From contig NZ_CP042163.1 of assembly GCF_007725405.1 (NCBI RefSeq), forward strand, positions 3,410,001-3,474,000: DNA of 64,000 bases. The letters are read 5' to 3'. This DNA is from Shouchella miscanthi (GTDB lineage: Bacteria; Bacillota; Bacilli; Bacillales; Bacillaceae_D). This document shows positions 55,221 to 58,320 of the stretch, in pieces. A model generated the notes under the pieces. It was not told the DNA's origin and made no database searches. It saw only the letters and a list, made by a program, of their open reading frames with translations. How positions within the stretch are numbered: position 1 is the stretch's first letter; every line of letters starts with the position of its first letter. Position numbers and translations under genes: made by a program.

Positions 55221-55276
55221 ACTTTTAGCAGGAAAATCAGGAAAAAGCGAGAACTAATTTAGAGGAAGAAAACTTT

Positions 55277-55306
55277 ATGTTCGATATATTAAAAGAAGTG
55301 GGTTGA
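55277..55306 (+). CDS. 9-codon ORF upstream of the RRNPP regulator (possible leaderless peptide)
   Basis: ATG 55277 to TGA 55304-55306 encodes MFDILKEVG. AGAGGA lies about ten bases upstream. The stop falls within the ribosome-site region of the next gene, five bases before its GTG start. It may be a coupling leader, a leaderless signal peptide or chance. The DIL..VG pattern resembles short peptides sensed by Rgg/NprR-type regulators, as remembered. Confidence 0.35.
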   Translation: MFDILKEVG

Positions 55307-55311
55307 TAACC

Positions 55312-56571
55312 GTGGAGCTAGGTAGAACAATTAAGTACTACCGGATTAAACATAACATGACACAAGCTGAACTCGCTGATGGTATATGTTCTATTCCACA
55401 TTTAAGCAAAATTGAAAATTCAATATATAATGCTAATTTCGGGACTGCAGCACTACTTTTAGAAAGACTCGGAATTAATATTGAAGAAGAATATGCCCAG
55501 CACTCAGAAATTAAACACACGCTCGATGCGTTTATAGAAGCCATTCAATTCGCTGACGAAGAGAAAGCACTTGAATACTATGAATCGCTTCTTGATAAAG
55601 AAACGGTTATACCGCGGACCAATTATCGTAATATGTATCATTTGTACATGATGCGCTACCATTTAATGAACGGTCATTTAACTCTCGCATTTAAAGATTG
55701 GAGTATTGTCGACAAGAACAGGAGTAATCTCGATCCTATTGAAGAACTTTCCGCCGAGTTGTTCTATGGCATTTATTTAGTTGAACTCGGACGACTTAAA
55801 GAAGCTAAACAGCTATTGCTTAGTATTAAAAATGCAGAACATTCATCACACTATCTTTTCGCTCGAGAAATCGCATTTATTTTATCCCATTGTTATACCG
55901 AATTAAACGAGCCTGAAAAAGCCATTATTTATGCAAAAGAAGCACTTTACCTATTTAAACAAGAAGATAATTATATACGCACTGCCCAATCACAAATGGT
56001 GTTAGGCATTAATTATACACAGTTAAATATGCTCGAAGAATCCCTTCGTGTGTTTAAAGTCCTCTTGCGTAATTCGCGACTATTCGGTCAACAATCGCTT
56101 TATTTTCAAGCAACCTATAATTATGGCATCCTCTTAAAGAAAAGTGGCGATTATGAAGCGAGTCACGACTGTTTCTTGCAATGCACAAACTTTTATGAAC
56201 CTTCTAGCAAAAACTACCTCTATGCTCGTTTAGCCGATGTAGAAGTGCTGTTTTTATTAAATGCCGAAAAAACGAGTATTCGTGACATATTAGTTGAAAT
56301 AATTGAGCAAAGCGTTACACAGGCTCATGAACGATTAGAGCTCCAAGCACGTTATTATATGTATCGTCTTGAATCGTCTGAACAACTCTATCATTTTATA
56401 GAAACGGAATTGTTGCCGCATTTGGAACGATTAGAAAGCCATGCGGAATTGTTGCCCTATGCTCGAGAGTTAGCTCATTGGTACCAACAAAATGGACACT
56501 ATGAGAAAGCCAATGAATACTTACAGAAATACTCTTCCATTTCGACGAAGAAAGATTTGTCCATGGTCTAA
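55312..56571 (+). CDS. RRNPP-family transcriptional regulator (NprR-like, HTH plus TPR)
   Basis: 419 residues, close to NprR (about 423). N-terminal helix-turn-helix IKYYRIKHNMTQAELADGIC with SIPHLSKIEN, then roughly nine TPR-type helix pairs (AKQLLLSIKNAEHSSHYLFA, EPEKAIIYAKEALYLFKQED, KKSGDYEASHDCFLQCTNFY). RRNPP proteins bind short secreted peptides through the TPR groove and switch genes for proteases and virulence. GTG 55312 is chosen; the start is otherwise ambiguous. No export-signal-bearing pro-peptide gene lies downstream, unlike nprR-nprX. Convergent with the subtilisin gene. Confidence 0.85.
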   Translation: MELGRTIKYYRIKHNMTQAELADGICSIPHLSKIENSIYNANFGTAALLLERLGINIEEEYAQHSEIKHTLDAFIEAIQFADEEKALEYYESLLDKETVIPRTNYRNMYHLYMMRYHLMNGHLTLAFKDWSIVDKNRSNLDPIEELSAELFYGIYLVELGRLKEAKQLLLSIKNAEHSSHYLFAREIAFILSHCYTELNEPEKAIIYAKEALYLFKQEDNYIRTAQSQMVLGINYTQLNMLEESLRVFKVLLRNSRLFGQQSLYFQATYNYGILLKKSGDYEASHDCFLQCTNFYEPSSKNYLYARLADVEVLFLLNAEKTSIRDILVEIIEQSVTQAHERLELQARYYMYRLESSEQLYHFIETELLPHLERLESHAELLPYARELAHWYQQNGHYEKANEYLQKYSSISTKKDLSMV

Positions 56572-56583
56572 TAAACTGTAGAT

Positions 56584-56624
56584 AAAAAGCTTATGAACGC
56601 ACATGTGCGTTCATAAGCTTTTTT
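56584..56624. terminator. Perfect-palindrome terminator after the RRNPP gene
   Basis: AAAAAGCTTATGAACGCA and its exact complement around CATG, then T6. Very strong and bidirectional. Confidence 0.95.
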
Positions 56625-56669
56625 GATTTAAACCATAGACGAATGCGTTGCGATATGTAATCGAACAGC

Positions 56670-56694
56670 ATAAAAAAAGCGCACGAGACTGCGC
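56670..56694 (-). terminator. Terminator for transcripts from the subtilisin gene
   Basis: Minus strand GCGCAGTCTCGTGCGC followed by seven T, about 145 bases after the aprE stop. It is the distal part of the 113-nt structure. Confidence 0.75.
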
Positions 56695-56788
56695 CCCCCA
56701 CTGGAACCGTCCCGGCCCGAAAATCGAGAATGCTTTTCTCGAAAAGGCTAGATTGTTTCTAGTGGAAAGCGTCAGTCGGTAGCGCTTT
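56676..56788. other. 113-nt nested stem-loop in the subtilisin 3' region
   Basis: Pairs inward: AAAGCGC (56676-56682) with GCGCTTT (56782-56788); GACTG (56687-56691) with CAGTC (56773-56777); CGC (56692-56694) with GCG (56769-56771); CCACTGGAA (56698-56706) with TTCTAGTGG (56757-56765, one G-U); GCC (56715-56717) with GGC (56746-56748); TCGAGAA (56724-56730) with TTCTCGA (56736-56742). On the minus strand the RNA would end in a run of seven U. Local GC is higher than in its surroundings. It could be the aprE terminator region, a processed 3'-UTR RNA or a mobile repeat. It contains alternative local hairpins, including GCGCA...TGCGC (56679-56693). Confidence 0.6.
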
Positions 56789-56836
56789 ATACAATCGATT
56801 ACTAGTTAGAATAAGTCTTTTTCGTGAAAAAACGGA

Positions 56837-57976
56837 TTAACGTGTTGCCGCTTCTGCGTTAACAAGACCACTTCCGAATTGATTTGTATTTCCTAAGTTT
56901 GTTGCCGTATTTTTAAGGTGGTTACGAATTTGAACATTTGACCAAGATGGATTCTTTTGCTTCACTAACGCAGCAACACCAGCAACGTGCGGTGTAGCCA
57001 TAGACGTACCATTGAAGCTTGAGTATCCATTACCAGGAACCGTACTTTGTACACCAACACCTGGTGCTACAATGTCAAGACCTGCTCCGTACTGAGAAAA
57101 GCTAGCGCGGTTGTTATTTTGATCTGTTGCACCTACTGCCATCGCATTTGCATAGCGTGCTGGGAATCCAACATTTCCTGCACCTGAGTTACCAGAAGCC
57201 GCAACTACAAGAACGCCACTTGCTGTTGCTTGGTTAACAGCTTGTTCCATTGTTGCAGATCCAGCACTACTTCCTAAACTCATGTTTGCAATGTGCATGC
57301 CATTATTTGCAGCCCATTGTAACCCTTGAGCAATACCACTGATTGACCCAGAGCCACTTGCTCCTAGCACTTTAACCCCATATAAATCAACGTTTGGTGC
57401 TACGCCGAGTACACCAATTGAATTGTTTAACGCTGCAATTGTACCAGCAACGTGAGTACCATGACCGTTTCCATCACTAATATTCGGCTCTCCTGGTACA
57501 AAACTAGCGCCGCCACGGATTCTTAAATCAGCGTGATTTGAGATCCCTGTGTCTAAAACAGCCACACGAACTCCAGTACCTGTGAATCCTCTGCTTTGAG
57601 CAATCGGAGCTTGTACACGGTTAATTCCCCATGGAACGGTTTGCATTGTCGTTACCTCAGCATCTTCCTCTATATAGGAGATGGCAGGGTCAAGCTCTAA
57701 TGCTTCTACATCTTGTGGGTCAAGTTCAACGGATAAAACAGGAATAAAATCAAATTCATGAAGGAGATCAATTTCAACATCTTCCACTTGAGAAGAAGAA
57801 ATAGAATACTCATCTCCATCAATTTGGTCAACAAATTGGGACATAACTTCTTGTTCCTTAAAGCCAATGAGGTATTTTTCCTTCGCTTCCTCGGCTGCTT
57901 GTGCGATTGATGAACTAAATGCTACTGATATAATTAGTGCTGTTCCGGCAACAATTTTCCCCATTTTCTTATTCAA
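56837..57976 (-). CDS. aprE: Secreted alkaline subtilisin (M-protease/Savinase type)
   Basis: 379-residue precursor from TTG 57976 (GAGGAGG nine bases upstream; an in-frame TTG at 57994 precedes the site). Signal peptide about 1-27 (ending IAQA), inhibitor-I9 propeptide to about 110, then the mature protease starting near QTVPWGINRVQAP. Catalytic triad Asp142 (VAVLDTGIS), His172 (NGHGTHVAG) and Ser325 (GTSMATPHVAG). Mature sequence is close to the high-alkaline proteases of Shouchella clausii as remembered, but the start reads TTM-QTVPWG where they have TTM-AQSVPWG. Degrades external protein. Confidence 0.96.
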   Translation of the reverse strand: MNKKMGKIVAGTALIISVAFSSSIAQAAEEAKEKYLIGFKEQEVMSQFVDQIDGDEYSISSSQVEDVEIDLLHEFDFIPVLSVELDPQDVEALELDPAISYIEEDAEVTTMQTVPWGINRVQAPIAQSRGFTGTGVRVAVLDTGISNHADLRIRGGASFVPGEPNISDGNGHGTHVAGTIAALNNSIGVLGVAPNVDLYGVKVLGASGSGSISGIAQGLQWAANNGMHIANMSLGSSAGSATMEQAVNQATASGVLVVAASGNSGAGNVGFPARYANAMAVGATDQNNNRASFSQYGAGLDIVAPGVGVQSTVPGNGYSSFNGTSMATPHVAGVAALVKQKNPSWSNVQIRNHLKNTATNLGNTNQFGSGLVNAEAATR

Positions 57977-58051: not shown

Positions 58052-58081
58052 TATTGGGAAACCTTTTTAGCTATTGGGAAA
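58052..58081 (-). promoter_or_regulatory. 20-bp-phased direct repeats upstream of aprE
   Basis: Two exact copies of TTTCCCAATA (minus strand) at 58072-58081 and 58052-58061, exactly 20 bases apart, so on the same face of the helix. Positioned around the -35 of the subtilisin promoter. Candidate activator binding sites. Confidence 0.6.
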
Positions 58082-58170: not shown

Positions 58171-58320
58171 ATGGAACTACTTCACCGTGTAAACTATGAG
58201 GATAAATCGATCAAACTCCCTACAAATAAACGTTTATCCCGCCACATTCTCACATATAGTCATTGGTACGATCAATCAACGGTTGAAAAAGCCAAAGCAG
58301 ATTTAAAACAATTGCTGTAA
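58171..58320 (+). CDS. 49-residue hypothetical protein
   Basis: Begins MELLHRVNYEDKSIKLPTNK and ends KADLKQLL. AAAGGAGGAGA lies six bases before the ATG, one of the best ribosome sites in the window. Basic, soluble, helical C-terminus. Not recognised. Divergent from the subtilisin gene and convergent with hflX. Confidence 0.65.
   Translation: MELLHRVNYEDKSIKLPTNKRLSRHILTYSHWYDQSTVEKAKADLKQLL

Follow-up and report, generated by a model that had tools for sequence, protein, structure and literature searches.

A probable orphan NprR-like quorum-sensing receptor tied to a secreted subtilisin in Shouchella

Does the NprR-like regulator encoded beside a secreted subtilisin gene in Shouchella miscanthi answer to a leaderless peptide encoded next to it? 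The locus lies in a stretch of 64,000 nucleotides of contig NZ_CP042163.1 (the window), in which the original prediction had singled out a nine-residue open reading frame (ORF), MFDILKEVG, as a candidate signal comparable to that of the RopB system of Streptococcus pyogenes. Comparison with related genomes points to another answer. The peptide claim for the window is very likely wrong, and the locus is probably a quorum-sensing protease module that is without its adjacent pheromone gene, its orphaned NprR-like receptor still being tied to the subtilisin. The features of the locus are collected in Table 1.

As for the regulator, sequence and predicted structure bear out its assignment as an NprR-like (RRNPP) HTH-TPR receptor. 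An N-terminal HTH (Pfam HTH_3) is followed by a C-terminal TPR solenoid, which is seen both with Pfam and in an AlphaFold2 (AF2) model. Among PDB entries, the regulator matches NprR by sequence (4gpk, E 5e-9; 5dbk, E 1e-8), and a Foldseek search with the AF2 model (mean pLDDT 80, pTM 0.72, the HTH part being low) placed NprR (5dbk/4gpk) at the top, followed by Rap. Superposition on 5dbk_A gave a TM-score of 0.68 by query and 0.78 by target, with ~19% identity in the structural alignment. No Rgg or RopB protein was present among the best 50 of 1601 Foldseek matches, which gives no sign of membership in the RopB/Rgg clan. An ortholog of the regulator was found in 13 of 13 Shouchella genomes; named species with orthologs of the window genes are S. 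oshimensis, S. xiaoxiensis, S. tritolerans, S. clausii, S. rhizosphaerae and S. shacheensis. In a tree of 40 receptors, from which we excluded G060, the near-copies G152, G316 and G275, and the distant peptide-less loci G017, G044, G012b, G018b and G080, the Shouchella receptors form one clade with a support of 100/100.

The mini-ORF is positioned as originally described, ending five bases 5' of the regulator's GTG. However, in the oriented upstream sequences of the 13 Shouchella genomes, MFDILKEVG is intact only in the window genome (G000) and G060, which are one species, and as MIDILKEVG in S. oshimensis, i.e., in three of 13. It reads MFDIL and then stops in G005, and the upstream alignment contains no comparable frame in the other nine genomes, all of which keep the regulator. 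The idea of a leaderless signal peptide therefore fails, because the ORF is not conserved while the receptor is, the outcome that the original prediction had itself named as telling against it. Its conserved bases are explained by an overlap with the regulator's ribosome site. The 3' half of the mini-ORF (AAAGAAGTGGGTTGA) coincides with this site, AAGTGGG, in which six of seven columns are invariant across the 13 genomes and the seventh is conserved to at least 90%, the bases just 3' being conserved as well. The Shine-Dalgarno (SD) sequence claimed for the mini-ORF does correspond to a purine-rich stretch, GAGGAAG, ending ~8-11 nt 5' of its ATG, but mini-ORFs of this kind are about as frequent as expected by chance: among 60 testable window ORFs of >=110 aa, an SD-preceded ATG mini-ORF of 6-30 codons that stops close to the gene start occurs in five (MFDILKEVG case included), and Markov-shuffled upstream sequences give 3.3 in 60 on average. 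MFDILKEVG was rejected as a pheromone on these two grounds, and is most probably a chance frame that overlaps the regulator's ribosome site, a by-product of the receptor leader.

Two other roles for the mini-ORF can be weighed against the same evidence. It is extremely improbable that MFDILKEVG is the leaderless pheromone of the adjacent receptor, in an analogue of RopB-SIP-SpeB. It has a start, a purine-rich stretch and a stop in the window species, only one residue is changed in S. oshimensis, and a secreted protease gene adjoins its receptor. But, besides its truncation in G005, its near-chance frequency and the alternative origin of its conserved bases, it is absent from nine receptor-keeping Shouchella genomes, seven of which have the linked subtilisin and the DNA boxes described below, and it does not resemble the PP-containing tails of related peptides. 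Alternatively, the mini-ORF might act in a few species as a leader cistron, coupling or tuning regulator translation, the peptide itself having no role. Its end 5 nt before the GTG, its overlap with the ribosome site and the presence in G005 of a different SD-preceded mini-ORF across the regulator start, in another frame, would fit such a role, which nevertheless appears doubtful since neither frame nor presence is conserved across Shouchella.

What most of the relatives examined carry instead is an exported pro-peptide beside the receptor. At 31 related loci, a pro-peptide with a leader is encoded directly 3' of the receptor (12 outgroup loci, 16 further loci that represent 17 of 18 in a second set, G051 having already been counted, and a last three of three); the receptor is found at E<=1e-60 in 143 genomes, in part of which the content of this slot was inspected. 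These pro-peptides of ~29-60 aa follow an SD, are lysine-rich at the start and include a hydrophobic stretch. By eye, 27 of the 31 have PP near their end and 17 a P-I-x-P-P core, with tails such as PEPIHPPS, EHPIQPPV, QHPIDPPL and MPPILPPA. Divergent tails include SVMLPPS and GPYLPPVAKPI in genus g2, while G051, G102, G047 and G024 have no PP; in G026 (locus L059) a mutation or an assembly error has left the pro-peptide frame without a stop. No pro-peptide was seen after the receptor in the more distant loci G017, G044, G012b, G018b and G080.

In Shouchella, this slot is empty of leader-like ORFs in 13 of 13 genomes, and the absence of a signal-sequence pro-peptide gene beside the regulator, which had been noticed in the window, thus extends to the whole set. 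The other outcome that the original prediction had named as telling against the leaderless circuit, a separate exported peptide, holds for the relatives but not for Shouchella. The slots that were printed contain hairpins, repeats or other non-coding-looking DNA; those of G001, G009, G002 and G007 have a few SD-preceded small ORFs, all leaderless, and no SD-preceded ORF of >=15 aa lies around the end of the regulator in the window genome. The adjacent exported pro-peptide that is a hallmark of RRNPP systems is therefore missing here. Membership in the receptor family does not depend on such a gene, whereas a claim to a complete RRNPP quorum-sensing pair does.

Searches for a substitute pheromone over the 13 Shouchella genomes yielded no convincing match, neither with an A2 profile (best E 0.006) nor with an A5 profile (best E 2e-5), the matches being mostly signal-peptide parts of longer frames. 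Eight of them were inspected and set aside: five are Phr-like peptides that follow Rap genes, one (by eye) follows an AimR-like frame, and the remaining two lie in long or unlike frames. Likewise, no convincing signal-like ORF was found within 330 nt of 135 of the 142 box sites in five genomes. It is possible, if rather unlikely, that the Shouchella receptor answers a peptide from elsewhere, e.g., the Phr of a box-bearing Rap operon or an unrecognised short ORF. Four candidate groove residues, N220 and Y235 (invariant) and R253 and N270 (nearly so), are conserved across 17 receptors, some linked to a peptide gene and others not, and may contact a peptide. Moreover, a box-bearing Rap operon in G000 ends in the Phr tail TYVHPIGGY (TYVQPIAGH in its G003 relative), which is faintly like an HPIxPP core. 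Against this stand the lack of a convincing profile match, the different Phr tails of other box-bearing Raps and the fact that each Phr has its own Rap receptor. The receptor could also have become autonomous, its C-terminal tail (K/D/R)(D/E)(L/F)S(I/M)V filling the peptide groove. All 11 Shouchella receptors whose subtilisin is linked retain the terminal five residues (D/E)(L/F)S(I/M)V; G002, G007 and the aligned outgroups do not. In the AF2 model, however, residues 409-419 have a pLDDT <50 (29 for the last block) and are not docked in the groove. We rejected a tethered tail on account of this disorder, and consider it very unlikely.

The tie between receptor and subtilisin is better supported than the window alone could show. 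The subtilisin gene lies downstream of the regulator and convergent to it, as originally described, and this arrangement is found in 11 of 13 Shouchella genomes, in five of five genus g2 genomes and in G033 and G061, the last seven being the closest relatives with a leadered peptide. In G024 (genus g3, together with G033 and G061) and in three genomes of genus g29, a subtilisin or subtilase lies downstream of the receptor on the same strand, and the two fetched g67 genomes have a subtilase, of which part was covered, immediately 5' of the receptor. The subtilisin at locus L059 of G026 is split into two frames, by mutation or assembly error. Within the fetched stretch, no subtilase was found beside the receptor in the two remaining Shouchella genomes (G002, G007), nor in G052, G056, G051, G047, G017, G044, G012b, G018b, G141, G287, G296 and G203. 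On this comparative evidence the receptor-subtilisin link is old. The tie to subtilisin that had been proposed is supported by the conserved convergent synteny and by a DNA word shared by the regions upstream of the subtilisins, which suggest that the receptor controls the subtilisin.

This word, TTTCCCAATA (the box), was first spotted in an alignment of sequences upstream of aprE, the subtilisin gene, from ten Shouchella and then tested elsewhere, so that the aprE sites are not independent. At <=1 mismatch, it precedes the subtilisin gene in all 11 Shouchella that have the linkage, as an exact tandem pair in six, a one-mismatch pair in G005 and a single box in four; the tandem copies are 20 nt apart in the seven genomes that have them, the G005 mismatch case included. 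Four of the genomes examined have a second, unlinked subtilisin paralog, and boxes are found there too: two each in G000, G003 and G009 and a single one in G005. In seven outgroups (G033, G061, G026, G012, G023, G018 and G029), a box (<=1 mismatch) lies on the 5' side of the subtilisin gene, in five cases upstream of the called ORF; in G023 and G026 it is inside the longest called ORF, and upstream of the gene only with a later start codon. In the same seven, a box (<=1 mismatch) also lies 85-93 nt 5' of the receptor; none of the 13 Shouchella genomes has a box upstream of the receptor. In five Shouchella genomes there are 142 occurrences of the word, compared with 84 for the reversed control. 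Summed over 20 genomes of the family with the receptor (E<=1e-20), box and control occur 467 and 307 times, versus 353 and 409 in 20 without it, G017 being left out as a weak match with 26% identity; the box/control ratios differ with a Mann-Whitney p of 4e-4, phylogeny not corrected. A literal search for the word returned, among the matches listed, nothing related to a published consensus, and passages of PMC4970707 give no DNA consensus.

We infer that TTTCCCAATA is a putative site of the regulator. It could instead be the site of a wider transition-state regulator, the receptor being a passenger beside the subtilisin gene, since Rap and AimR-like genes are also preceded by boxes, often in the opposite orientation. 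This is unlikely, given that the box occurs 5' of the receptor itself in seven close outgroups, that the HTH is strongly conserved across the same set, and that the box/control ratio is higher where the receptor is present.

Boxes elsewhere in Shouchella have the following settings. In four genomes, a box in opposite orientation lies 71-81 nt 5' of nine Rap-like genes (L119, L139, L146, L160, L168, L206, L211, L227 and L234), the two in G000 matching Pfam RapH_N. At L122 and L135, it is directly 3' of a TATAAT-like -10 element of AimR-like receptor genes (L122 matches Pfam AimR) that adjoin near-identical small XRE-like genes, and related genes with a nearby box exist in G005, G009 and G010. 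At L118 (G000) and L212 (G003), a box is found 42 nt before the called start of a secreted-looking 240-aa protein, whose G000 copy contains, internally, a DHPLLPPPITVPP stretch with a faint resemblance to the pheromone core.

The upstream region of the regulator gene in Shouchella has a feature of its own. The sigma-H consensus is AGGA / GAAT with ~17 nt between the two elements. The pattern [AG]nAGGA[AT]-N14..18-GAA[TC], whose last position was opened to C to cover the window copy, occurs at the corresponding position of 12 of the 13 Shouchella genomes (nine with GAAT, three, the window included, with GAAC) and in 0 of 17 outgroup receptor upstreams. In the Shouchella upstream alignment, the AGGA and GAA columns are conserved. 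In Shouchella, transcription of the regulator may thus be set by a sigma-H-type promoter.

Together, the peptide-free slot, the missing receptor box and the sigma-H-like promoter are the reasons for reading the window locus as a probable orphaned quorum receptor. The ancestral state would have been an autoinducing operon, with a box upstream of receptor and peptide. Based on the comparison of slot, box, tree and promoter, the Shouchella ancestor would have lost both the peptide gene and the autoregulatory box, with receptor transcription coming under a sigma-H-type promoter and control passing to growth phase. The receptor, either working without a peptide or answering one made elsewhere, would bind TTTCCCAATA and activate the subtilisin gene at the transition to stationary phase.

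Several observations weigh against this scenario. The peptide-less slot is not peculiar to Shouchella, as it is shared by the five distant loci named above, all outside the tree, and a Shouchella peptide gene at another locus, if short or divergent, would be missed by the profile and box searches. The link to subtilisin is lacking in G002 and G007, although they too are Shouchella. As for the box, its count in the window genome is hardly higher than that of the control (29 versus 26), 76 of 135 sites examined are in called ORFs and 59 are intergenic, and its presence upstream of Rap and AimR-like genes means that another regulator could own it. Phylogeny confounds the comparison of genomes with and without the receptor, in which G024 was placed among those without although it has a more distant relative (E 5.5e-18), together with a peptide and a box-preceded subtilase. 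Finally, the window promoter has GAAC rather than GAAT, and G002 has no such element.

The layout that had been predicted, a receptor, a leaderless peptide and a secreted protease, is very probably not in the window, but it is present in g29, another Bacillales genus (placed at order level) known from three genomes, which are three of three of its family (G057, G065 and G066; loci L065, L322 and L323). In each, the slot 3' of the receptor encodes a leaderless peptide with an APILPP core (MKKAPILPPVT, MNMKAPILPPVT and MKRKAPILPPIV), with a strong SD in front and, behind it, a hairpin (by eye) and then a secreted subtilase with catalytic motifs. A box (<=1 mismatch, opposite orientation) lies between peptide and subtilase. 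A conserved, SD-preceded ultrasmall ORF beside the receptor, the hallmark of RopB with a leaderless communication peptide (LCP), is thus found in three of three g29 genomes, and in Shouchella the window ORF is not conserved in this way. Over the last eight codons, synonymous/non-synonymous differences are 2/0, 5/2 and 3/2 in the three pairs, and differences by codon position 1/2/3 are 6/2/12; the numbers are small, but the pattern is as expected of a translated peptide. In the 40-receptor tree, the three g29 receptors form one clade (100/100) nested among leadered receptors, and the receptors nearest to them are paired with leadered P-I-x-P-P peptides. On the simplest reading, the g29 peptide would result from leader loss in place, leaving a lysine-rich start and the mature core. 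We lean slightly towards a broader proposal, in which an exported pheromone was changed in two ways within one subtilisin-tied receptor lineage, by deletion in Shouchella and by in-place stripping of the Sec leader in g29, the latter giving an NprR-like module convergent with RopB-SIP-SpeB. None of the literature matches listed, supplements lying outside the search and the RRNPP_detector (PMC10075063) and RRNPPA evolution (PMC9765709) papers being covered by term, gave an account of this locus.

The closest known system is NprR-NprX of Bacillus thuringiensis/cereus (4gpk, 5dbk), in which nprX is placed directly downstream of the NprR gene, NprR is linked to control of extracellular protease and NprX is SKPDIVG. 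The window receptor resembles NprR in having an HTH and a TPR solenoid, NprR being its best PDB match by both sequence and fold, and in having relatives that carry a pro-peptide directly 3'. It differs in that its likely target is the adjoining subtilisin, in that Shouchella has no peptide gene and in that 17 of 31 relatives' peptides have P-I-x-P-P. In PMC4970707 the protease gene linked to NprR is nprA. With RopB-SIP-speB of S. pyogenes, the window receptor shares its place beside a secreted protease, and g29 the leaderless peptide between receptor and protease; unlike in that system, the window ORF is not conserved, and the closest solved relatives of the receptor are NprR and Rap. Passages of PMC10518010 tie LCPs to the RopB clan and state that it is unknown how ORFs for mature peptide signals arose in evolution. 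Orphan receptors have precedents, with three orphan raps in B. subtilis 168 mentioned in a passage of PMC5199041. Like these, the window receptor has no adjoining peptide gene, but it is an HTH receptor, orphaned in all 13 genomes examined of one genus and with peptide-linked relatives for comparison.

The interesting part of the analysis is this comparative series. Related receptors, with the same slot, P-I-x-P-P core and target type, occur with a leadered peptide, a leaderless one or none, which makes it directly testable how leaderless signals originate and what becomes of a receptor once its signal is lost. If true, the two-way change of the pheromone would show how leaderless signals arise, and through leader loss a quorum sensor may become an intracellular switch. 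The window subtilisin is, we assume, of the M-protease/savinase (detergent-protease) type, so that what switches on its gene is also of practical interest. A search for literature on protease regulation and quorum in S. clausii returned no matches.

Table 1. Features of the receptor-subtilisin locus, in window coordinates
Feature	Position	Strand	Remarks
Sigma-H-like promoter element of regulator gene, AGGA-N17-GAAC	55228..55254	+	Pattern match, column conservation
Mini-ORF MFDILKEVG	55277..55306	+	ATG 55277, stop TGA 55304-55306; read as a chance frame, or a minor leader ORF at best
Regulator ribosome-binding site AAGTGGG	55296..55302	+	9 nt 5' of regulator GTG
NprR-like HTH-TPR (RRNPP) regulator, 419 aa (predicted)	55312..56571	+	GTG start; Pfam HTH_3 + TPR
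Hairpin then T-run, terminator-like by eye	56584..56626	+	Occupies the slot that holds the pro-peptide gene in relatives
Secreted S8 subtilisin, TTG start	56837..57976	-	Pfam Peptidase_S8 + Inhibitor_I9; convergent to regulator
Box TTTCCCAATA, proximal copy 5' of subtilisin	58052..58061	-	Exact, conserved
Box TTTCCCAATA, distal copy 5' of subtilisin	58072..58081	-	20 nt from proximal copy, start to start

Two minor features adjoin these. Between the terminator-like hairpin and the subtilisin end, the DNA (56650-56830) is GC-rich and repeat-like and, by eye, varies among species. Divergent from aprE, a 49-aa ORF without a Pfam match (58171-58320, plus strand) has a coding stretch that, by eye, looks conserved 5' of aprE in G005, G001 and the S. 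clausii group, and does not in the aprE upstream alignment of G006/G009.

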